Below, piece after piece: positions 26,383 to 47,793 of a stretch of 64,000 nt of DNA. The notes under the pieces were generated by a model. That model worked only from the letters and a program-made list of their open reading frames with translations. It made no database searches and was not told where the DNA came from. Location: assembly GCF_024494575.1 (NCBI RefSeq), contig NZ_JANHDO010000001.1, positions 186,001-250,000 of the forward strand, in the 5' to 3' direction. The DNA is from Halorubrum salinum. GTDB taxonomy: Archaea; Halobacteriota; Halobacteria; Halobacteriales; Haloferacaceae. Numbering within the stretch: the stretch's first letter is position 1; the number at the start of each line of letters is the position of its first letter. Position numbers and translations under genes: made by a program.

Positions 26383-27507
26383 CTAGTTTCCGGTCCAGCG
26401 TAAGACCGCGAGCGTCCCCTCGAAGAGGACGATCATGGTGAGCGTCACGATGATCGGAGCCATCCCGGTCGGGTCCGGGCTGAACAGAAAGGCGATCCCG
26501 AGGAACGATCCCCAGAATATCAGCCGCTTCGCCTCCAGCCACTGGCGGGTGACGATGTTCATCATGATTGCGAGCATGATGAAAAGCGGGATCTGGAAGA
26601 CGATCGCCATGAACGCGAGCATGATGACGATCAGGTTGAACGTCTCCGCGAGCCCGAAGGCGATCGTCGCGGCGTCGGAGGTGTAGGTGGTGAAATACGA
26701 GAAGATCGCGGGCAACACGAGGAAGTGCGCGAACGCGATGCCGATGCCGCCGAGCACGAGGCTCGTCGGGACCGCGGCGAGGTAGTACCGCCGCTCGTTC
26801 GGGTACAGTCCCGGCTTCATGAACCGGTAGGTCTGGTAGACGAACGCGGGGAGGCCGACGACGACGCCCGCGAGCCCGGCGACCTTCAGCCGGGTGAGCG
26901 GCAGTTCGAGCGGGCCGTACAGCCGCGGGCGGTTTTCCATCGGCGCGGGGATGTGGTAGCTCCAGAAGTAGTTGATAAGCTCCGTCGACTGCGCCACCAC
27001 GACGAGCGTCGCGATCCCCCCGAAGATGAAGACGACGGCGAGCCGTCGCATCATCTCCTCGATGTGGTCCGCGAGCGGCATCTCTTGGTCCGACTCCGGG
27101 GCGCTGATGCCGCCTATCTCTTCCTCGTCGGACGGCGACCCGCCGGTGTCGCCGCCGGCGTCTTCTGTGTTGTCGGCATCTTCGGCGTCGCTGTCGCCGT
27201 CGTTCCCGGCGGTGTCGTCGCTCGTCTCCCCCTCGTCTACGGGGTCGGTGTTTTGCCACCGCGCGGACCCGTCGTGTCTGTCGAGCGGAGTCAGCTCGGC
27301 GGACTCGGACTCGTCTTCCGCCGCGTCGTCGGCCGGAGACGCGGACTCGTCGCTCGTGGCCCCGTCGCTCCCGACGCCGTCGGTGGTGGGTTCGTCGCCC
27401 TCGTCGGAATCCGCCGCGGTGTCGCCGCTGTCGGCCGTCCCGTCGTCGCCGACCGCGTCGTCCGTCGGAGCCGAGGAGTCGTCGCGCGACCGGTCCGAGT
27501 CGTCCAT
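26383..27507 (-). CDS. tatC: Twin-arginine translocase subunit TatC (TatCo type)
   Basis: 374 residues. The first 130 are an acidic, disordered, Asp/Ser/Thr-rich tail not found in bacterial TatC. Then comes the TatC domain: MPLADHIEEMMRRL, YGPLELPLTRLKVAG, LPAFVYQTYRFMKPGLYPNERRY, six helices and LFSPDP. TatC recognises twin-arginine signal peptides and builds the Tat export channel. Haloarchaea send most exported proteins by Tat, and several Tat substrates are in this window. Divergent from the fused TatC, as is typical. Confidence 0.92.
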   Translation of the reverse strand: MDDSDRSRDDSSAPTDDAVGDDGTADSGDTAADSDEGDEPTTDGVGSDGATSDESASPADDAAEDESESAELTPLDRHDGSARWQNTDPVDEGETSDDTAGNDGDSDAEDADNTEDAGGDTGGSPSDEEEIGGISAPESDQEMPLADHIEEMMRRLAVVFIFGGIATLVVVAQSTELINYFWSYHIPAPMENRPRLYGPLELPLTRLKVAGLAGVVVGLPAFVYQTYRFMKPGLYPNERRYYLAAVPTSLVLGGIGIAFAHFLVLPAIFSYFTTYTSDAATIAFGLAETFNLIVIMLAFMAIVFQIPLFIMLAIMMNIVTRQWLEAKRLIFWGSFLGIAFLFSPDPTGMAPIIVTLTMIVLFEGTLAVLRWTGN

Positions 27508-27627
27508 TCACTCTCTCTACGAAACCGGGTGACTATAGGCCTTTTCGGATAGCCGCGAGCGCCGAGGCCTCGCGGAACCCGAACGCGGTCGAAAAGGTTG
27601 ATAACGGCGACGGACTTCGACTCCCGT

Positions 27628-29865
27628 ATGGCGAGTGCCCTCGACGAGGATACCCAGCAGTCGCTCGCGGCGGGCCGCGAGTCGGCGAAGGCGTTCCTTC
27701 GGTCGATCCAGAAGGACCTACAGAAGGTGTTCGTCGTCTTCCTCCTCGGCTTCCTCGGGACGTTCTGGGCGCTCCGCACGTTCGTCTGGGAGTTCCTGTA
27801 CACGGTCACCAGATCGAACATGTCTCCCTCGGTGGCCGCCGAGGCGGACGTCATCGCGACGACCCCGTTCGAGGTGATCCTGCTGCAGGCGAAGATCGGC
27901 CTCATCGTCGGCGCGATCACCGCCCTCCCGGCGCTCGTCTACGTCTCGCGCACCGAACTTCGCGCTCGGGGCGCGTGGCCGCAGTCGCCGATCCCGCGCT
28001 GGAAGCTCGCCGGCATCGCGCTCCTCGGGTTCGGACTCTTCGGCGTCGGCGTCGCATACGGCGTCTACGCCTTCTTCCCGATCATGTTCTCGTTTCTGGC
28101 CGGGTTCGGACTTGAGGCCGGCATCCAGCCCACGTACTCCATCGTGATGTGGACGGAGTTCATCGTCTTCCTCTCCCTTTCCTTCGGGCTCGCCGGCCAG
28201 ATGCCCCTCCTCATCACCGGGCTCTCCTACTCGGGTATCGTCCAGTACGAGACGTTCCGCGACAAGTGGCGCTACGCGGTGGTCGCCATCTTCGTCTTCG
28301 GTGCCGTCTTCTCGCCGCCGGACCCGTTCACGCAGCTGATGTGGGCGTTCCCGCTCGTGGCGCTGTACGGGTTCAGCCTCTACCTCGCGAAGCTCGTCGT
28401 CACGGCCCAGCGAAGCTCGGACCGCATCGACGTGCTCGGCGCGGCCCGGAACCACTGGAACGTCGTCGGCGGAGCGGCTGTCCTCGGCGGCGGCCTCGTG
28501 TACGCCTTCTACGAGTACGGCGGACGCGCGGCCGCGAACGGGCTCCTCCGGCTGGCGAACAGCGACTGGCGGTTCCTCGAACCCGGGACCGGATTCGGCG
28601 TCGATCCCGCCACCGGACTCGGAATCTACGCCGCCGCGTGGGCGCTCGCGGCGATCGCCGTCGCGACGCTGTGGGCCGTCTACGCCGACCTCGACACGAC
28701 GAGTCCGGGGTACCAGTACGGCGACCCGACCGCGGTCGACATCGCCGATCTCGACGCCGCCGGGGTCCGCGCCGCCCCCGACGACGTCTTCGCGCAGATG
28801 GACGAGGCCGAATCGCTCGGGCTCGCGCAGGCCGCCATGGACGACGACGACCCCGAGAAGGCGCAGGCGATCCTGGACCGATACGACGCGGTCGCCGACG
28901 CGGACGGCGGGGACTCGGGAGCCGACGGAAGCGCAGACAGCGGTGCGGGCGGTTCCGGCGGCAGCGGCGGCGCCGGCGGCTCCGGCGACGACGGACTCGT
29001 GGGCGCGATGCAGGACCGAACCTCCCGCGCGAGCACGACGTTCCTCTCGGAGCTCACGGACGGGAACGAAGACGAGGCGGAAGACGACATCGGCGGCTAT
29101 TACACGGACCTGAAGTTCATCTTCGACTCGCTTCGGTCGCGCTCGTTCCGGCTCGTCGCCGTCTTCAGCGCGGTGATGGCGGCCGCGTTCACGTGGCTGT
29201 ACCTCGGCGGGCTCGCGGCGGTCCGGAACGACCTCGAACGCCGCGTTCCCGCCCAGATAGAGGGGGGGATCAACATCATCACGCTCCACCCCGTCGAGGC
29301 GCTGATATTCATGGTGAAGTTCTCCCTCTTGCTCGGGGTCATCGCCGTGTTCCCGGTGCTCCTCTACTACGCGTGGCCCGCGCTGCGAGAGCGCGGCTTC
29401 GTCGCCGGTCGGATCTATCAGGTGTACCTCTGGGCCGGCGCGCTCGGTGCCGGCATGATCGGCGGCTTCGCGCTCGGCTACGCGTACATCGCGCCCGGGC
29501 TCATCGGATGGCTCGTCACGGACGCGGAGCTGGCGAACATGGTCATCACCTACCAGGTGAGCGACTTCCTCTGGCTCGTCATCTACACGACGATCGGGAT
29601 CGGCTTCCTCGCCGACATCCCGATCGCGATGCTCCTGCTGAACAACGCCGGAATCCCGTACCGCGCCTTCCGCGAGCGCTGGCGCGAGGTCCTCATCGGC
29701 ATCATGCTCGTCGCGGCGGTGTTCACCCCGGCCGACGTGGTCACGATGCTGCTCGCGACGGTGCCGCTGATGATCGCGTACGGCGTCGGGGTCGGCGTGC
29801 TCTTCGTCGTCACGCTCGGCGGGCGTCGCGACCTCTCGCCGCCCGCGGAGTTCGTCGGGCGGTGA
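27628..29865 (+). CDS. tatC2: Fused double TatC (TatCt type)
   Basis: 745 residues from the ATG at 27628. Two complete TatC-like domains are joined: the first (about 25-270) has FLRSIQKDLQKVFVVF, LPALVYVSRTELRARG and FSPPDPFTQ; the second (about 480-745) has FIFDSLRSRSFRLVAVF, LHPVEALIFMVKFSL and FTPADVVT. Between them are two extra helices and a Gly/Ser/Asp-rich linker. This 14-helix fusion is a haloarchaeal hallmark; its orthologue is essential in Haloferax. Divergent from tatC with a 120-base gap. Confidence 0.93.
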   Translation: MASALDEDTQQSLAAGRESAKAFLRSIQKDLQKVFVVFLLGFLGTFWALRTFVWEFLYTVTRSNMSPSVAAEADVIATTPFEVILLQAKIGLIVGAITALPALVYVSRTELRARGAWPQSPIPRWKLAGIALLGFGLFGVGVAYGVYAFFPIMFSFLAGFGLEAGIQPTYSIVMWTEFIVFLSLSFGLAGQMPLLITGLSYSGIVQYETFRDKWRYAVVAIFVFGAVFSPPDPFTQLMWAFPLVALYGFSLYLAKLVVTAQRSSDRIDVLGAARNHWNVVGGAAVLGGGLVYAFYEYGGRAAANGLLRLANSDWRFLEPGTGFGVDPATGLGIYAAAWALAAIAVATLWAVYADLDTTSPGYQYGDPTAVDIADLDAAGVRAAPDDVFAQMDEAESLGLAQAAMDDDDPEKAQAILDRYDAVADADGGDSGADGSADSGAGGSGGSGGAGGSGDDGLVGAMQDRTSRASTTFLSELTDGNEDEAEDDIGGYYTDLKFIFDSLRSRSFRLVAVFSAVMAAAFTWLYLGGLAAVRNDLERRVPAQIEGGINIITLHPVEALIFMVKFSLLLGVIAVFPVLLYYAWPALRERGFVAGRIYQVYLWAGALGAGMIGGFALGYAYIAPGLIGWLVTDAELANMVITYQVSDFLWLVIYTTIGIGFLADIPIAMLLLNNAGIPYRAFRERWREVLIGIMLVAAVFTPADVVTMLLATVPLMIAYGVGVGVLFVVTLGGRRDLSPPAEFVGR

Positions 29866-40243: not shown

Positions 40244-40639
40244 TCACAGCGATCGCGACCCGTCGAGCGCGACGAGTACGGCGCTTGCCCGCGGCGTGGC
40301 GCGATACATCCGCCACTTCCCCTCTTTCCGCCGCGTGACGAGGCCGGCGTCGGTAAGTTGTGAGAGGGCGTGACTGATTGCGCTGTCGCTCACGTCCAAG
40401 AGCGGCGAGAGTTCACAGACGCACAGCTCGTCGTCGTCGGCCGCGTGGAGCATCCGGACAATCTTGTACCGCGTCTCGTTGCCGAGCGCCGACAGCAGTT
40501 CGATATCGGTCTCCAGATCGGATCCGCCGATGCTCTCGTTCAGTTCTTCCAACTCCGCTAACCGGTCGGCGAGGTCTTCGTCTGTACAGGAGCCGCACTC
40601 GTCGGCGACGTACCGCTGTAAACGCTCGGTCGATGACAT
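40244..40639 (-). CDS. arsR: ArsR-family metalloregulatory repressor
   Basis: 131 residues. The winged helix has LLSALGNETRYKIVRMLH, and the arsenite-sensing helix carries ELCVCELSPLLDVSDSAISHALSQL, with the ELCVC(D/E)L motif of classical ArsR. An additional CGSC pair is present near residue 15. Arsenite binding releases the repressor from DNA. The gene is divergent from arsD/arsA with a 329-base gap, which should hold its operators. An A/T patch about 26 bases before its ATG fits a leaderless transcript. Confidence 0.9.
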   Translation of the reverse strand: MSSTERLQRYVADECGSCTDEDLADRLAELEELNESIGGSDLETDIELLSALGNETRYKIVRMLHAADDDELCVCELSPLLDVSDSAISHALSQLTDAGLVTRRKEGKWRMYRATPRASAVLVALDGSRSL

Positions 40640-40968
40640 ACAGACAATTGAATCGATGTGAGATTAAGCGTTGTGGACCTGCACGCATCCGTTATTAGCA
40701 TGTGCTAGATGATTCATCATTTCTTCAAGTAGAATGTGTTTGGGTGAGGCGAATCTAAATAAACTGGGGAGTATCGTGGTCATATATCCACAGTAAATGC
40801 GATAAAACGCTATTTCGCATGTTTTCGATGAGATATCCGAGTAGGTGCGCTATCGATGGGTTTATAATTATCTGAATGTTTGTTCAACTGTATTGGTCGC
40901 GGGAGAAATAGATGGTAGTCTCTGTCGCGAACGATAGCTCAGACGATGGACGACGATTCGACCCAATC
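40640..40968. promoter_or_regulatory. Divergent arsR-arsD control region
   Basis: A long A/T-rich spacer. For arsR a TTAATC lies at about 40662-40667 (minus strand). For arsD a strong TATA-like TTTATAATT sits at 40860-40868. A short inverted repeat TAGCA-TG-TGCTA is at 40696-40707 and further A/T boxes are at 40756 and 40781. One of these may be the ArsR operator. Nothing else is seen. Confidence 0.5.
40860..40868 (+). promoter_or_regulatory. TATA box of the arsD-arsA operon
   Basis: TTTATAATT in the divergent arsR/arsD spacer. A start site about 25 bases downstream, near 40890, would leave a leader of about 80 bases before the ArsD ATG at 40969, or about 20 if the upstream in-frame ATG at 40912 is used. 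Confidence 0.5.
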
Positions 40969-41298
40969 ATGACCGAACTCATCCTGTACGAAGAAGCGAT
41001 GTGTTGCTCAACCGGCGTCTGCGGTCCCGACCCCGACGACGAACTCGTCGAGGTCAGCGCGGCGCTCGACCAACTCGAAGACGCGTTCGATGATCTCGAG
41101 GTCAATCGGGCGAACATGCAGCACAACATCGAGCAGTTCCTCGAAACGCAGCGGATCTACGACCGCGTGCAGGAAGATGGCTCGTCGATTCTCCCGATCA
41201 CGGTCGTCGACAACGAGATCGTCGCCGAGGGCGAGTACCTCTCGTACGACGAACTGACTGCGGCTATCGAGGAGAGCCCAACGCCACAGGAGGCCTAA
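40969..41298 (+). CDS. arsD: ArsD arsenic metallochaperone
   Basis: 109 residues from the ATG at 40969; the first residues (MTELILYEEAMCCSTGVCG) align with the E. coli ArsD start, so the in-frame ATG at 40912 is less likely. The CC..C triad that binds arsenite and hands it to ArsA is intact (Cys 12, 13 and 18 of the family). A thioredoxin-like fold follows with SSILPITVVDNEIV. It starts an operon with arsA three bases further on. Confidence 0.92.
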   Translation: MTELILYEEAMCCSTGVCGPDPDDELVEVSAALDQLEDAFDDLEVNRANMQHNIEQFLETQRIYDRVQEDGSSILPITVVDNEIVAEGEYLSYDELTAAIEESPTPQEA

Positions 41299-41301
41299 CG
41301 A

Positions 41302-43242
41302 ATGGCACAATCACAGTCGACAGCGACAGGTGCGCGTGATGTCGTCGAACCGAGCGGCGACGAGACGGAATTCGTCTTCTTCAGCGGGAAGGGCGGCGTC
41401 GGAAAGAGCACCGTGAGCTGTGCGACCGCGACGTGGCTCGCTGACAACGACTACGAGACGTTGCTAGTGACCACCGACCCAGCGCCGAACCTCTCGGACA
41501 TCTTCGGTCAAACCATCGGCCACGAGGTCACCGCGATCGACGGAGTCGAAAACCTCTCAGCGATCGAGATCGACCCGGACACCGCAGCCGAGGAGTACCG
41601 ACAGGAAACGATCGAGCCCATGCGGGAACTACTCGGCGAGGAAGAGATCCAGACGGTCGAAGAGCAGCTCAATAGCCCTTGCGTCGAGGAGATCGCCGCC
41701 TTCGACAACTTCGTCGACTTCATGGACAGTCCTGAGTACGATGTCGTCGTCTTCGACACGGCACCGACAGGCCACACCATCCGGCTGATGGAGCTCCCCT
41801 CCGACTGGAACGCCGAACTCGAAAAGGGTGGGTCGACCTGTATCGGTCCGGCCGCCTCGATGGAAGACAAAAAGCAAGACTACGAGCGCGCCATCGACAC
41901 CCTACAGGACAATGAGCGCACCTCGTTCGCGTTCGTCGGCAAGCCGGAGGACTCCTCGATCGACGAGATCGAACGTAGTGCGAGCGATCTCGGCGAACTC
42001 GGTATCGAGTCCCAGCTGTTGATCCTCAACGGCTACCTCCCCGAGTCGGTGTGCGACGATCCCTTCTTCGAGGGAAAACGCGCGGACGAACAGGCCGTCA
42101 TCGAGCGGGCCCGCGAGGAGTTCGATGCGGACGCGACGGCGACGTATCCGCTTCAGCCCGGCGAGATAGCCGGGATCGACCTGCTCGCGGACGTGGGCGG
42201 TGTCCTCTACGACGGCGCGGAAGCGACCGTCGATGTCGGGGCCGCGACCGACGTGGACGCCGACGGCGCGGTCGACTTCGACTCGATGGCGGATGCCGAC
42301 GCGGTCGTGGATCAACTGACGCCGGGTGACGAGACGCAGTACCTCTTTTTCACCGGCAAGGGTGGTGTCGGAAAGAGCACGCTCGCTTCGACGGCGGCGA
42401 CGAAGTTGGCCGAGGCGGGCCACGAAACGCTCGTCGTCACGACCGACCCGGCCGCGCACTTAGAGGACATCTTCGGCGAGCCAGTGGGCCACGAGCCCAC
42501 CCCGGTCGGTCAAGAGAACCTCGACGCGGCGCGTATCGACCAAGAGAAAGCGCTCGCGGAGTACCGCGAGCAGGTCCTCGACCACGTCACCGAAATGTAC
42601 GAGGACAAAGAAGACACCCAGATCGACGTCGACGCTGCGATCGCAAACGTCGAAGAGGAACTGGAGTCTCCGTGTGCCGAAGAGATGGCCGCGCTCGAGA
42701 AGTTCGTGAGCTACTTCGACGAGGACGGCTATGATATCGTCGTCTTTGACACGGCTCCGACGGGCCACACCCTCCGACTGCTCGAACTACCTTCCGACTG
42801 GAAGGGGTTCATGGACCTCGGATCGCTGACGAAGGGCGCTGCCCCCGCGAAGGGCGACCAGTACGACGAGGTCATCGAGACTATGAAAGACCCCGAGCGG
42901 AGCACGTTCGCGTTCGTGATGTACCCCGAATACACGCCCATGATGGAGGCGTATCGGGCCGCCGCCGACCTCGAAGATCAGGTCGGCATCGAGACTTCGC
43001 TGGTCGTCGCTAACTACCTGCTTCCCGAAGAGTACGGCGACAACGCCTTCTTCGCGAACCGACGCGCCCAGCAGGCGCAGTATCTCGACGAGATCCGCGA
43101 TCGGTTCGACGCGCCGCTGATGTTGGCACCGCTCCGGCGGGACGAACCGGTCGGGCTTGACGAACTCAGCGCCTTCGGCGAGGAGATTACCGGGCTCGCG
43201 GACGTTGCCGAGGCTGACGTACCGGAGGTGACTCCCTCGTGA
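41302..43242 (+). CDS. arsA: ArsA arsenite-stimulated ATPase, duplicated form
   Basis: 646 residues. Two homologous halves each hold GKGGVGKST (residues about 30 and 350), LLVTTDPA/VVTTDPA, and VFDTAPTGHTLRL-type signal-transduction motifs. Cysteines occur at SPCVEEI in half one and SPCAEEM in half two, with others in CDDPF. The duplicated ArsA drives arsenite efflux in bacteria together with ArsB. No arsB or acr3 is in the window; Halobacterium NRC-1 has a similar arsADRC cluster without adjacent arsB. The stop overlaps the next gene (GTGA). Confidence 0.95.
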   Translation: MAQSQSTATGARDVVEPSGDETEFVFFSGKGGVGKSTVSCATATWLADNDYETLLVTTDPAPNLSDIFGQTIGHEVTAIDGVENLSAIEIDPDTAAEEYRQETIEPMRELLGEEEIQTVEEQLNSPCVEEIAAFDNFVDFMDSPEYDVVVFDTAPTGHTIRLMELPSDWNAELEKGGSTCIGPAASMEDKKQDYERAIDTLQDNERTSFAFVGKPEDSSIDEIERSASDLGELGIESQLLILNGYLPESVCDDPFFEGKRADEQAVIERAREEFDADATATYPLQPGEIAGIDLLADVGGVLYDGAEATVDVGAATDVDADGAVDFDSMADADAVVDQLTPGDETQYLFFTGKGGVGKSTLASTAATKLAEAGHETLVVTTDPAAHLEDIFGEPVGHEPTPVGQENLDAARIDQEKALAEYREQVLDHVTEMYEDKEDTQIDVDAAIANVEEELESPCAEEMAALEKFVSYFDEDGYDIVVFDTAPTGHTLRLLELPSDWKGFMDLGSLTKGAAPAKGDQYDEVIETMKDPERSTFAFVMYPEYTPMMEAYRAAADLEDQVGIETSLVVANYLLPEEYGDNAFFANRRAQQAQYLDEIRDRFDAPLMLAPLRRDEPVGLDELSAFGEEITGLADVAEADVPEVTPS

Positions 43243-43655
43243 GCGACGCACAGGATGTAGACGACGCGGCCGAGGGCAGCGTGGCCGTATCCGATGAGGA
43301 AGACGTAGAAGACAACGTCGAGGCGGCGCTCCGCGAGTTCCTCAACACGCTCGGTGAGTCTGAGACGTATCAGCGGTTCGTCGCGGCCGACGAGGCGCTA
43401 CAGGACGATGACGACGCGATGGCACTGATCCGGGAGTACCAGCGAAAGCAACAACAGATGCAGCGCGGCGACTTCGACGGGTCGGTGATGGCCGAGCTGA
43501 AGCAGCTCCAGACGGAGATGTCGAACAACGAGACGATCCAGCGTCAGCAGGCCGCACAGACGGAGCTGGTCGAACTGCTCCAGCGGACGAACGACGCCAT
43601 CAGCGACGAGATCGGCGAGGAGTTCGCGCGGTCCACCGGAGGTGGGTGCTGTTGA
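43239..43655 (+). CDS. YlbF/YmcA-family helical protein with C-terminal Cys pair
   Basis: 138 residues, GTG start overlapping the arsA stop, so coupled. Acidic N-terminus, then the YlbF-type helices AALREFLNTLGESETYQRFVAADEALQ, ALIREYQRKQQQMQ and LKQLQTEMSNNETIQ. The end is GGGCC. In Bacillus, YlbF and YmcA sit in a complex holding iron-sulfur clusters through C-terminal cysteines. Here the tail and the operon suggest that it binds arsenite or protects thiols, which is inference. The next gene overlaps its stop. Confidence 0.8.
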   Translation: MSDAQDVDDAAEGSVAVSDEEDVEDNVEAALREFLNTLGESETYQRFVAADEALQDDDDAMALIREYQRKQQQMQRGDFDGSVMAELKQLQTEMSNNETIQRQQAAQTELVELLQRTNDAISDEIGEEFARSTGGGCC

Positions 43656-43870
43656 GCGCTTCCGGTCAGGACGCCAGCGAGTCCGAAGTGACGGACGACG
43701 AGGTCGTCGCGGCCGCCGAGGCGCTCGGTGAGGAGCTCGCGGCGGCGAAAGAGTCCTCCTCGGAGTTTGCATTCACCACGATGGTGATGCAGTGTAACGA
43801 GGCGATCGGAGACGAGACCAGAATCGACTACGGCAGCGTCTGCGGTGCCGACGACGACAGCTGCTGTTAG
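43652..43870 (+). CDS. Small Cys-tailed protein of the ars operon
   Basis: 72 residues from a TTG overlapping the previous stop (TTGA); a GTG at 43646 is an alternative. Acidic helix (DDEVVAAAEALGEELAAAKESS), then FTTMVMQCNEAIGDET, and a tail VCGADDDSCC. Cysteines are at one internal position and in the final C-x6-CC. I do not recognise the family. Coupled translation after arsA and the YlbF-like gene implies a role in arsenic handling. Confidence 0.7.
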   Translation: MSASGQDASESEVTDDEVVAAAEALGEELAAAKESSSEFAFTTMVMQCNEAIGDETRIDYGSVCGADDDSCC

Positions 43871-44093
43871 CGGAGATCGAGCAAGCAAGCCACCTCCGGC
43901 AGCCTCCCCGACTGGAGTTCGTCAAACAGCGTGATGGCATGATGCTGGTTATACTCTCTGTATCAGCATGGCTTCGAAAACCTCCCACCGTCTGAGAGTC
44001 TCAACAGGACCAGTGCTCATAGGTTGGTAAGAGTATGTGACAGTATCGTCTCAATAATCTTTATTGCGAGCTGCTCACAATCCGCTACTAACA

Positions 44094-44618
44094 ATGGCAA
44101 CCAGAGAAGCAAACTGGGACACTCCTCTCGGTACGGGTGGTGAAGTATTCGAACTCCTCGGAAACGCCCGCAAAGCATGGATCTATACGTATATCCACCA
44201 TCATCCATCGACAACAATTCAAGATCTAGTTGAGGCCCTTGATCTTCCGCAGCGAACGGTCTACGATTATATCGACGATCTCGAAGGTGCGGACTTTATC
44301 CACCAGTCAAACGCCGGCCGCCCCGCAGAATACACGGCTCGTGACATCAAACTCCAGTTGACGGATGGTGACACCGAACGGCAGATCACACCTGAGTTAG
44401 TTGAAGCGGTTGCTCGACGAACGCGGGACGAAGATATCGATACGTACATCGATCGGCATGGCTTGGACGGGCTCGCCGTCGCGCTAGAATATACTCGTGA
44501 ATACGTCGATGGATCCGTCACACATCAGATTATGGCGCGAGAGCAAGAGCTCTCACCGCTCGAAGCAGGCGTTATTCTGGACGCACTCCGGCCTGTCGTT
44601 GAGACTGACTCGGAATGA
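44094..44618 (+). CDS. Winged-helix regulator/antitoxin-like protein
   Basis: 174 residues from the ATG at 44094, with an A/T-rich AATAATCTTTATT about 35 bases upstream as promoter. The DNA-binding domain spans about residues 25-80: ARKAWIYTYIHHHPSTTIQDLVEALDLPQRTVYDYIDDLEG. The C-terminal half is helical and probably binds the PIN partner or dimerises (EAVARRTRDEDIDTYIDRHG). It overlaps the PIN gene by ATGA. This layout is found repeatedly in haloarchaea (DUF7437-like). Confidence 0.75.
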   Translation: MATREANWDTPLGTGGEVFELLGNARKAWIYTYIHHHPSTTIQDLVEALDLPQRTVYDYIDDLEGADFIHQSNAGRPAEYTARDIKLQLTDGDTERQITPELVEAVARRTRDEDIDTYIDRHGLDGLAVALEYTREYVDGSVTHQIMAREQELSPLEAGVILDALRPVVETDSE

Positions 44619-45100
44619 TACATGAGGACACCGTCGTTTTCATCGACTCGTCCGTCCTCATCAGTTGTGGCCGGCGTGGGAGTACACGGTTTCAGGCGCT
44701 CGCTCGGGAAGCTCGCCAGCGTGATACCGTCTTTCGGATTTCGCCGCAGGTGTATGCAGAGGTGGCTGGAGATTCCTCTCTCGATGAGTACACAACTGGT
44801 GATTCTGCTGTTGAAAAAGCACTCCAAGAGGGATGGATGAAGGTCACAGAAAGCCCGTCCTATTCGGACTCGGATATCTCAACAGTGATGGATCAGGCAC
44901 GGAGTTTCATCGCAAGTGCCAGCGATCGGTCGGAAGATATCGTCGAAAAAGCGGATACGGAACTTGTCGGGTTGGCGCTTGAACTGCTTCTTACTGATAC
45001 TGCAGATCGAGTTATACGCGTAACGAACGACATTCCACTCGGCAAAGCAGCTGAATCGTTACTTCCACAGTATGGATTCGACAACGAACAAATCACGTGA
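44615..45100 (+). CDS. PIN-domain ribonuclease/toxin-like protein
   Basis: 161 residues. The PIN acidic residues are seen in VVFIDSSVLIS (Asp near 10), PQVYAEVAGD, EKADTELVGLALELL and VIRVTNDIP. The fold is that of VapC-type endoribonucleases, which cleave tRNA or rRNA. It is translationally coupled to the upstream HTH gene, like a toxin with its antitoxin. The length is slightly above typical VapC (about 130). Activity is inferred. Confidence 0.75.
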   Translation: MIHEDTVVFIDSSVLISCGRRGSTRFQALAREARQRDTVFRISPQVYAEVAGDSSLDEYTTGDSAVEKALQEGWMKVTESPSYSDSDISTVMDQARSFIASASDRSEDIVEKADTELVGLALELLLTDTADRVIRVTNDIPLGKAAESLLPQYGFDNEQIT

Positions 45101-45167: not shown

Positions 45168-45184
45168 GGCCCTGTTGAAACGCC
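45168..45184 (+). repeat. Insertion-sequence end-like motif
   Basis: GGCCCTGTTGAAACGCC closely resembles GGCTCTGTTGAAA found at 46463 and 56128 and the published IS6-family terminal repeat GGCACTGTTGCAAA. No transposase is next to it. It follows the remains of a short frame after the PIN gene. Confidence 0.45.
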
Positions 45185-45389: not shown

Positions 45390-46112
45390 TCAGTTGACGG
45401 CCTTCGAGAGTTCGGCACCCGCCTTGAACTTGACCACCTTCTTCGCCGCGATCTGGATCTCCTTTCCGGTCTGAGGATTTCGCCCGGTCCGGGCAGACCG
45501 CTTCGAGATGCTGAACGTGCCGAACCCCTCATTTTCGTCCTCTTCCCCACCCACCGACAGCCGATCCCCCTTTTTCAGGGCCTTCGCCGTCGCGTTGATG
45601 AACGCCTCGAGCGCCCGCTTCGCGTCGTCCTTCGATATCCTCTCGTGCGAGCGTCCCGCTGCACTCGCGATGTACTCCGCGTCGATCACCACGTCAGCGT
45701 CCCGGCACTTGGCGCTGGCCTCGTCACCCTTGCCGGGGTTGAGATCGAGGGCGGCCGCGAACTCCGGGCAGGCGTCGAACGTCACCGGCGAGTCGTCTCC
45801 GGGCCCGTTCCGAGAGCTCGGATTTCGACCCGTCCGGGCGGAGCGCTTCGAGATACTGAACGACCCGAATCCGACCAGTACGGCGCTGTCGCCCTTCGCC
45901 AAGGCTCTCGTCGTCGCGTGAGTGAACCCGTCAAGCGCCCGCTTCGCGTCCGCCTTGCTCAGTCCGGATTCGCTCGCCATCGCCTCGATCAGTTCCGCTT
46001 TGTTCATCGCCGCGGTCTGACCAGTCATCGTTACCGCGCCCAGTCCGAGGAACGTCGAGAGGATTGCACCCCTCCGCAGTACGGTTCGCCGCGAGAGCTC
46101 TTTTTGAGACAT
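45390..46112 (-). CDS. Tat-signal tandem HU-family DNA-binding protein
   Basis: 240 residues from the ATG at 46112. Residues 1-35 form a twin-arginine signal (LSRRTVLRRG then a hydrophobic core ending TGQTAA). Two HU/IHF domains follow: first MNKAELIEAMASESGLSKADAKRAL ... VGFGSFSISKRSARTGRNP, with a shortened DNA-binding arm; second starting near ISKDDAKRALEAFINATAKALKKGD with GFGTFSISKRSARTGRNPQTGKEI and the full KVVKFKAGAELSKAVN end. HU is a bacterial-type chromatin protein, rare in archaea; export by Tat has no precedent that I know. It may bind extracellular DNA. Two cysteines lie in the linker. Confidence 0.85.
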   Translation of the reverse strand: MSQKELSRRTVLRRGAILSTFLGLGAVTMTGQTAAMNKAELIEAMASESGLSKADAKRALDGFTHATTRALAKGDSAVLVGFGSFSISKRSARTGRNPSSRNGPGDDSPVTFDACPEFAAALDLNPGKGDEASAKCRDADVVIDAEYIASAAGRSHERISKDDAKRALEAFINATAKALKKGDRLSVGGEEDENEGFGTFSISKRSARTGRNPQTGKEIQIAAKKVVKFKAGAELSKAVN

Positions 46113-46149
46113 GATACCTTTACTCACACCCTTCCGACGCTCTGTGACT

Positions 46150-46158
46150 ATATAAGCA
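46150..46158 (-). promoter_or_regulatory. TATA box of the tandem-HU gene
   Basis: CTTATATAG on the minus strand, about 40 bases before the ATG at 46112, gives a predicted leader of roughly a dozen bases. It is set in a very A/T-rich spacer. Confidence 0.55.
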
Positions 46159-46358: not shown

Positions 46359-46629
46359 ACTCGACTCGTTCCCGCTTCAATCACTCATAATCCTCGGCAA
46401 CAACGTCTTTCGCTAGCGTCTAAACACGGCCCGCGCCCTGTATTCAGCAAGACTGCTGAAACGGCTCTGTTGAAATCCTCAGCGAGTGATATGTTTTGAT
46501 CCAGTCGCGGTCAATACATGGAGCTCACATATCTGGGAGGGTGCCAGTAAATTCACATCGTAACAGAAACCGAATGCGAGATACGGACGTTCAGCGGAGC
46601 AGTATCAGCGTTTCTTCTTAAACGGACCG
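46359..46629. other. Spacer with insertion-sequence end and no gene
   Basis: Contains the 24-bp inverted repeat copy at 46456-46479 and a 57-base stretch (46463-46519) similar to the left end of the cassette at 56128, including TAGTCGCGGTCA-like sequence. Between 46520 and 46629 nothing is recognised apart from the end of the beta-propeller gene. Confidence 0.55.
46456..46479 (+). repeat. 24-bp inverted repeat, left arm around the beta-propeller gene
   Basis: CTGAAACGGCTCTGTTGAAA plus TCCT. The reverse complement recurs at 47967-47990 with a single mismatch (23 of 24). The pair encloses 1.5 kb with one gene, 46630-47793, and no transposase. Confidence 0.75.
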
Positions 46630-47793
46630 TCACTCAGCGGTAAGTGCGTGGATAGCCCCGTCGGCAGTGCCAGCGTAGACGGTCCCGTCGATGACCACCA
46701 CAGACGACACCAAACTACTCGCTGTCTCGAAGCGCCACCGTTCGGTGCCATCGCTCGGTGCAAGTGCGTAGACTGTACCGCCGTTCCCACCGAGGTACAC
46801 GGCGTCAGTGGTCACAGCGGGTAGGGACCCGATGTCATCAGCCACTCCGAAAGACCACTGCTTGGTACCCTCGTCCGCAGTGAGCGCATACACGGTATCG
46901 TAACCCCTGATATAGACGGTCTCATTCAGTACCGCTGGCGGTCCCATGCCAACTGTCTCCATGGGATCTTCCGGCTCGAATGACCACTGTTCGGTCCCAT
47001 CGGCGGCGTTCAGTGCCCAGTCTCGTTTACCGTGTTTGAGGTAGACGGTGCCGTCGGCCACCGCCGGCGTCGCGCTGTCCGCATAGTTGAGCTCGTGGGT
47101 CCACTGTTCAGTGCCGTCAACGGCGTCTATCGCATAGGCGCTGTTCCCACCGATGTACACGCTGCCGTCGACGACCGCCGGCGACGCGTACGCGTTGAAC
47201 CCCATCTCGAAAGACCATCGCTCCGTGCCGTCGGTGGCGTCCAGCGCGTAGAGCTGCCCCTCGCCGTCCCCGACACCCCCGACGTAAACGGTGCCGTCGA
47301 CGACCGCCGGAGCCGGAGCCACCTGTTTGCCGGTCTCGAAGCGCCAGCGTTCGGTCCCGTCGCTGGCAGCCAGCGCACAGAGCGTTCCGTCGCCACAGCC
47401 AACGTAGACGGTGTCGTCGACGACCGCCGGTGGCCAGCCGATCTGCCCGTCGACTTCGACGGACCACCGTTCAGTACCGTCGCTCGTAGCGAAAGCGGAG
47501 ACCGACCTGTCGTTGCTCCCGACGTAAACGGAGTCCTCGACGACCGCAAGCGAATCCCCGATTCCACCCTGAGTCTGGACGGTCCACTGTTCGGTGACCG
47601 AGTCGGTCGGGCCGGTCGCGCCCAGTGGTCCCCCCGCCCGTGCCGGATTATACCGGAACATCGAGACACCGGTCGGAGCCGATCTCCCGGTTCCCGCCCC
47701 CTCATTACCGGTATCTGAACACCCAGTGAGGCTGGCTGCTCCAGCCACGCCGGTCATTCGGAGGTATCCGCGTCGCGATATGGGGATATTCAC
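46630..47793 (-). CDS. PQQ-like beta-propeller lipoprotein
   Basis: 387 residues with a GTG start at 47793 and a TATA-like TTTATATC about 25 bases upstream. The N-terminus has a twin-arginine motif (SRRGYLRM) and lipobox (LTGC), so it is exported by Tat and lipid-anchored. Seven to eight repeats of the kind AVVDGTVYVG...ALDATDGTERWSFE form a beta-propeller as in PQQ-binding/BamB-like proteins. PQQ-binding residues are not evident, so it may be a structural or adhesion propeller. Flanked by 24-bp inverted repeats. Confidence 0.88.
   Translation of the reverse strand: MNIPISRRGYLRMTGVAGAASLTGCSDTGNEGAGTGRSAPTGVSMFRYNPARAGGPLGATGPTDSVTEQWTVQTQGGIGDSLAVVEDSVYVGSNDRSVSAFATSDGTERWSVEVDGQIGWPPAVVDDTVYVGCGDGTLCALAASDGTERWRFETGKQVAPAPAVVDGTVYVGGVGDGEGQLYALDATDGTERWSFEMGFNAYASPAVVDGSVYIGGNSAYAIDAVDGTEQWTHELNYADSATPAVADGTVYLKHGKRDWALNAADGTEQWSFEPEDPMETVGMGPPAVLNETVYIRGYDTVYALTADEGTKQWSFGVADDIGSLPAVTTDAVYLGGNGGTVYALAPSDGTERWRFETASSLVSSVVVIDGTVYAGTADGAIHALTAE

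Follow-up and report, generated by a model that had tools for sequence, protein, structure and literature searches.

The DNA analysed here (the window, 64,000 nucleotides of Halorubrum salinum) carries a minus-strand open reading frame of 240 aa, read from ATG 46112, in which a twin-arginine (Tat) signal is followed by two HU/IHF-type domains in tandem. It represents a conserved, real and previously doubted family, an HU-family variant with a dedicated export signal. The signal, the tandem domains and their conservation are read from sequence. Our best explanation of the whole, for which we judge the chances to be even, is an exported single-chain HU that would act on extracellular DNA. HU-type proteins outside the cell help to keep the DNA of bacterial biofilms together; in an HU dedicated to Tat export, archaea would have a secreted DNA architect. 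The features of the gene and its upstream region are as follows.

45390..46112, minus strand: Tat-signal tandem-HU gene encoding a 240-aa single-chain protein of HU/IHF type (open reading frame, PF00216, homologues, dN/dS)
46113..46127, minus strand: possible alternative upstream GTG start, which adds MSKGI (5 aa) (start of the open reading frame)
46151..46155, minus strand: TATA-like element, first base 43 nt upstream of the ATG
46008..46112, minus strand: Tat signal peptide, residues 1-35, with the SRRTVL motif and a cleavage-like site between TAA and M (Tat rule, alignment)
45744..46007, minus strand: HU domain 1, residues 36-123, arm shortened (Pfam, AlphaFold)
45705..45770, minus strand: segment with C115 and C136 (alignment)
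45393..45692, minus strand: HU domain 2, residues 141-240, complete (Pfam, AlphaFold, structure matches)
45450..45503, minus strand: DNA-binding arm of domain 2 by homology, KRSARTGRNPQTGKEIQI, residues 204-221 (conservation of RSARTGRNPQTG, dN/dS)
45393..45440, minus strand: HU tail covering the final strand and helix (residues 225-240), KVVKFKAGAELSKAVN; a near-identical peptide closes many Tat lipoproteins (tail pattern)

The two HU/IHF domains named in the preliminary description were recovered as two stretches of PF00216 in the 240-aa protein (147.6 bits, E 1.3e-43, cut-off 22.4). The two arms also differ as first described. The arm with the conserved RNP tip, RSARTGRNPQTG, is present in domain 2 of 32/33 homologues, and the arm of domain 1, which is shortened in the window protein, looks complete in just 4/33. 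One homologue (L031, genome G173) has an altered domain 2 arm, GGRNRQTG, in which the RNP-tip proline is lost. In another (L010, G081), domain 1 is highly divergent, with a TSP3-like DSDGDGLGDGTE near the expected arm site, and domain 2 is standard. A cysteine pair occupies the linker site in 27 of the 33 homologues (22 by pattern, 5 by position); a disulfide, which would fit an exported protein, is possible at this site. All segments evolve as protein, and purifying selection (dN/dS <1) extends from the signal to the tail. Among 17 close relatives, dN/dS is 0.62 for the signal, 0.31 for domain 1, 0.36 for the linker, 0.28 for the N-terminal part of domain 2 and 0.09 for the arm and tail. The corresponding values for 32 aligned genes (L013 was left out of this calculation and of the tree, and was read separately) are 0.50, 0.35, 0.43, 0.40 and 0.09. 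The segment with the lowest dN/dS (~0.09) comprises residues 196-240, the arm and tail of domain 2. The pI of the mature protein is 8.1-10.9 in six homologues checked.

The Tat signal is composed of MSQKELSRRTVLRR and 23 consecutive uncharged residues, which extend through TAA up to the HU start, and it ends immediately ahead of the customary HU start MNKAEL. All 33 tandem homologues carry the signal first noted in the window protein, as judged by a home-made TATFIND-like rule; their starts were picked by position against the RR motif, a choice that works in their favour under this rule. As a background, 47/778 other neighbourhood genes satisfy the same rule, and nine of 12 such genes printed appear by eye to be genuine Tat proteins. 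With a loose regular expression, a small-x-A (A-x-A-like) cleavage pattern was observed near the HU start in 33/33 homologues. Three profile matches to TatC indicate that the host genome has the Tat translocase. Tat is the common export route of haloarchaea, and therefore Tat alone signifies nothing special. On bacterial HU, neither a Tat nor a Sec signal was seen in 14 relatives read by eye, which were chosen for matches beginning upstream of residue 36 (13 gave the HU frame; L067 was out of frame). The Bacteroidota relatives read open with the same kind of start and have no signal, which suggests that the signal was fused exactly at the old HU start. We found no report of a Tat signal on HU in the literature searched at the level of titles and abstract openings, with subscription papers mostly outside the search.

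The signal is retained with either start, ATG 46112 or GTG 46127; in the alignment, homologue L027 uses the GTG start and the counterpart of ATG 46112 is absent. A TATA-like element lies 25-62 nt upstream of the signal-peptide start in 22/33 homologues. The start matters for a reading in which translation begins internally, so that most of the product has no signal and serves as a cytosolic nucleoid protein. One public annotation points this way. On the H. salinarum plasmid pHAR01 (NZ_CP053942.1, L254 6001-6723), the annotated start lies inside domain 2 and the product, WP_235681785.1, is a 93-aa HU that begins at about residue 148; the signal and domain 1 are thus invisible in this record, which the present analysis corrects. 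This reading is nevertheless very improbable. According to the alignment, Met is absent at the HU start in 10/33 genes (L003, L005, L007, L008, L009, L010, L015, L020, L112 and L114), so an internal start at MNKAEL does not exist in them, purifying selection acts on the upstream frame, and the TATA-like element lies ahead of the signal. The preliminary description had itself raised an internal start near MNKAEL as an objection, and for the family this objection falls away. The host genome also encodes its own histone doublet, by which a nucleoid role is already filled.

The AlphaFold input was a 15-row alignment in which domain 1 was covered by 3 rows only. The best of five models has a mean pLDDT of 72.9 and a pTM of 0.71 (the models span 72.9 to 40.7), with pLDDT <50 for residues 1-33 and for the first arm (90-106). 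An HU fold consisting of two helices, saddle, arm and last helix is present in the model and matches those of HU and scIHF2; domain 1 contains helices 38-49 and 53-72 and strands 77-87 and 110-114. The best DNA-bound match is scIHF2 (2iie), with a Z of 11.9, 2.2 Å over 133 residues and a Foldseek E of 1.7e-7. A single-chain pseudo-dimer of two HU domains is predicted, resembling the engineered scIHF2, which likewise has two HU-fold halves per chain. In contrast to that artificial fusion, the haloarchaeal protein is a natural head-to-tail tandem. Similar scores are reached by tandem HU folds from microtubule structures and from the Mycoplasma gliding machinery (8snb, Z 12.2; 8v3l, 11.2; 9io5, 10.9), and for this reason the fold alone is no proof of DNA binding.

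In the mechanism that we propose, the Tat system would carry the folded single-chain HU out of the cell, a step that the signal makes very probable. Signal peptidase would cut after TAA, and the mature protein would open at the normal HU residues Met-Asn-Lys. The two HU domains would pack together as one pseudo-dimer, for which a partner would be unnecessary, and DNA outside the cell would be bound and bent through the basic saddle and the domain 2 arm, which is complete. The bound extracellular DNA would be stabilised in a biofilm or kept near the surface as a nutrient. We infer export, cleavage, DNA binding and use; for binding to extracellular DNA in particular, we judge the chances to be about even. 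To our knowledge, extracellular HU/IHF of bacteria has no known export signal, in contrast to the dedicated signal of the haloarchaeal tandem HU. The proposed role on biofilm extracellular DNA is like that of extracellular DNABII in bacterial biofilms (the available part of PMC6011942). The setting exists in at least one Halorubrum species: extracellular DNA is critical in biofilms of Halorubrum lacusprofundi (PMC5118699, available part). Haloferax volcanii grows on extracellular DNA, aided by a putative lipoprotein nuclease (PMC3929857, available part).

The ligand could also be protein. The exported tandem HU would then be a structural or adhesive surface module for protein contacts and DNA would not be its ligand, a reading that we consider somewhat unlikely. 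Here the microtubule and gliding folds that rank beside scIHF2 gain weight, and 8snb and 9io5, which match equally and whose titles do not describe DNA proteins, speak against a DNA role. HU-DNA contacts are largely electrostatic, and the molar salt outside should weaken them. Salt, the degenerate first arm and the isolated HU peptides that occur in lipoproteins (below) leave room for a non-DNA role, and PF18291, a HU-HIG model, scores above its cut-off (40.6 vs 26.2 bits). Conversely, the DNA-contact arm RSARTGRNPQTG (32/33) lies in the most conserved part of the protein, the mature protein is basic in all six cases checked, and the PF00216 score far exceeds those of the HU-HIG and CCDC81 models. 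The latter stay under their cut-offs (PF18175, 22.5 vs 35; PF18289, 21.5 vs 26.1 bits). The HU domains of these clades (PF18175, PF18289, PF18291) fall beyond classical HU/IHF. No other domain, including the HU-HIG partners (Ig, wHTH and a glycine-rich part), was found above the Pfam cut-off in the tandem protein.

The arm and tail peptides of HU recur in a separate family of haloarchaeal Tat lipoproteins, which was found via the arm peptide and poses a concrete puzzle. Members (termed 'hypothetical protein' in records H16-H20) share the Tat signal and the HU-derived peptides with the tandem HU. They differ from it in being open frames of 481-777 aa with a lipobox and, by sequence, no whole HU domain. 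A 595-residue lipoprotein query from genome G046 has matches in 96/391 genomes, some of the weaker of which are probably the tandem HU itself, matched through the arm; the query carries the arm, and the sample may therefore lean to HU-bearing members. From 30 loci fetched, a regular expression yielded 27 open frames, of which 25 have a Tat signal and a lipobox. At least one HU piece was observed in 24 of the 27 frames (tail in 19, helix-2-like piece in 13, arm in 6), the exceptions being L129, L139 and L146; on reading, L133, L142 and L143, which the regular expression had missed, also bear an HU piece.

The tail pattern KFK[A/T]GAELS occurs at 95 places in 72/391 genomes (reversed control 0), 29 of them in tandem HU and 66 elsewhere in 59 genomes. 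All 24 of the latter that were read resemble lipoprotein C-termini, with L149 and L155 being fragments only. The genome of the window itself encodes a Tat lipoprotein relative with the tail KFKAGAELS (L210, G000:C1:785999-787380). A DNA pattern for the arm KRSARTGRN matches 72 times in 44/391 genomes (control 0). Tandem Tat-HU genes account for 57 of these places, the lipoprotein family for 14 and a broken remnant for one, so that 14 of the 15 matches outside tandem genes belong to the lipoproteins. Seven of eight lipoprotein arm places read have a Tat signal and a lipobox, and L283 is a short frame with neither. Among four full-length lipoproteins compared with Pfam, only L133 scored above cut-off, with PF00216 on the arm; L121 had no match in NCBIfam or the PDB. 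The tail peptide alone gave no Pfam match and the helix-2-like piece gave only E 0.079, and the identities of these two pieces thus rest on direct identity to the tandem HU. A YNSSRSN-type motif is conserved in 26 of the 27 open lipoprotein frames (loci L119-L178). Elsewhere in the lipoproteins, weak likenesses to MopE metal-binding (E 2.8e-4), RCC1 (2.8e-3), a tyrosine kinase (HRD) loop (0.024), TSP3 (0.1) and the T4 gp19 tube (0.15) were observed; all are below cut-off and may be due to chance.

The tail DNA of tandem HU and lipoproteins compares at 4.44 of 26 bases within genomes vs 4.73 between genomes, from 18 and 254 pairs and 26 bases only (permutation p 0.20), and its silent sites vary. 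Tail DNA is not clearly closer within genomes, and selection on the tail peptide therefore fits better than recent copying. Gene conversion between the two kinds of tail was considered and gave no clear signal in the 26 bases. The two families tend to occur together: the lipoproteins are present in 17/32 HU genomes vs 59/391 genomes overall (Fisher 1.2e-7, kinship not corrected). The retention of arm or tail peptides in lipoproteins that lack a complete HU is not explained by DNA binding of an HU dimer and counts against a DNA role. The arm and tail might instead be linear motifs for an extracellular partner, such as an adhesin, a protease site or a virus or toxin decoy, for which the two families would be carriers. 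Shared arm and tail peptides in two otherwise unrelated Tat families, with controls at 0, agree with this proposal, as do the tail DNA, which does not support recent copying, and the co-occurrence. We nevertheless consider it improbable: no partner is known, the tandem protein retains a whole HU fold beyond what a motif would need, and a single fusion followed by purifying selection would give the same picture. A wider version of the DNA-binding reading, which we think unlikely, is an extracellular chromatin-like system made from captured bacterial HU, in which the soluble tandem HU and membrane-anchored lipoproteins displaying its arm and tail peptides would act together on extracellular DNA, or on a recogniser of these peptides.

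Our survey covered 391 genomes sampled from one class, which we take to be Halobacteria. The search for HU among Halobacteria suggested at the outset gave PF00216 matches in 36 of them. The tandem gene is present in 32 genomes as 33 genes (two in G148), each with the Tat signal, in families f1, f3 and f4. Three of the other matching genomes (G046, G254 and G348) have the HU arm only, inside a large Tat lipoprotein, and the fourth, G375, has only a 56-codon remnant. This remnant (L115, family f4) is a leftover of HU domain 2, with stops ahead of it. Within the genus, 23/52 genomes match, G108, G348 and G395 only via a lipoprotein-type frame. In G393, the HU gene lies in two pieces ~2.6 kb apart. 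The tandem gene is absent from 359/391 genomes and is thus dispensable. Among named records, the nearest genes are those of H. aquaticum (90%) and H. xinjiangense (88%).

A bacterial origin had been suggested from the window alone, and a Bacteroidota-like origin is supported by sequence matches: nearly all bacterial records among the matches listed bear Bacteroidota names, and identity in the best segment is 56-68% for most of the 78 bacterial matches listed. The tandem HU has sequence, domain, arm and tail in common with bacterial HU/IHF (DNABII, PF00216) and Bacteroidota HU; it differs from these in its two-domain chain, Tat signal, short first arm, two linker cysteines and archaeal host. 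The GC content is ~66% in the gene body vs ~51% in the flanks. The proposed tree against bacterial HU (unrooted, 76 rows x 90 columns) places 19 domain 1 rows in one group (99/92) and 20 domain 2 rows in another (99/94). It does not put the haloarchaeal rows within Bacteroidota, nor does it separate duplication from two acquisitions as the origin of the tandem, so that the Bacteroidota affinity rests on the matches and not on the tree. Of the bacterial rows, 30 were random picks from the best matches of the window protein and 7 were others; 12 close relatives, L013 and the first domain of L010 were omitted. L023, from family f3, falls among the f1 rows, suggesting that the gene has moved between haloarchaea. 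The isolated import into an island envisaged in the preliminary description is unsupported, since each domain forms one group spanning families f1, f3 and f4; the gene neighbourhoods also differ. In a phage collection, no record covered 80% of the query; HU relatives occur on ten viral contigs, the best with 61% over part of the query.

HTa of Thermoplasma, a single-domain protein, is an abundant intracellular chromatin protein, unlike the Tat-signal tandem HU. It is likewise an archaeal HU from bacteria and a histone analogue (PMC6877293, available part). In the available part of that 2019 eLife study, four halophile HU sequences lay apart from HTa, among Bacteroidetes, and recent acquisition or contamination was suggested; it is the one discussion of haloarchaeal HU in the literature that we searched. 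Contamination or a decayed gene, for which this earlier doubt, the G375 remnant and the two-piece gene of G393 could be cited, is scarcely credible for the family. The 33 genes are open, 27 of them lie on contigs >90 kb, each domain forms one tree group and dN/dS is below 1. The spread of the tandem gene across class genomes argues against contamination, and the record on haloarchaeal HU, earlier set aside as possible contamination (PMC6877293, available part), can be corrected.

Two short sequences flank the gene.

45168..45180, plus strand: 13-mer GGCCCTGTTGAAA resembling an IS end, past the 3' end of the gene
46463..46475, plus strand: 13-mer GGCTCTGTTGAAA resembling an IS end, past the 5' end of the gene

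We take both 13-mers to be similar to IS ends, and to this extent the transposon debris reported around the gene is present, although the case is weak. An IS-end-like sequence was detected in 4/22 other HU neighbourhoods (L197 and L254 are the same plasmid, and one match lies inside the gene itself) and flanks the gene in none of the 22; IS-linked mobility was accordingly dropped. The gene neighbourhoods vary between genomes. No operon partner was seen when 818 predicted genes from 41 neighbourhoods (22 HU, 19 lipoprotein), called with a home-made gene caller, were clustered. One cluster contained the target genes, and the next best was present in 4/22 HU and 4/19 lipoprotein neighbourhoods. 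This clustering revealed no shared neighbour tying the tandem HU to nucleases, pili or uptake. The ComEC-type Competence profile PF03772 has no match in the host genome, which weakens a bacterial-style uptake role.

Several other features of the window were noted. Three TatC matches lie at 26443-29766, one on the minus strand and two in one plus-strand frame of 770 codons. By eye, the open reading frames at 40244-43870 resemble an arsenic-resistance cluster (ArsR-, ArsD- and double ArsA-like). Two overlapping frames at 44064-45100, beside the HU gene, appear by eye to be HTH-like and then PIN-like and are possibly a toxin-antitoxin pair. On the other side, 46630-47793 adjoins the HU gene and, by eye, likely encodes a Tat lipoprotein with PQQ-type repeats (SRRGYLRMTGVAGAASLTGC).
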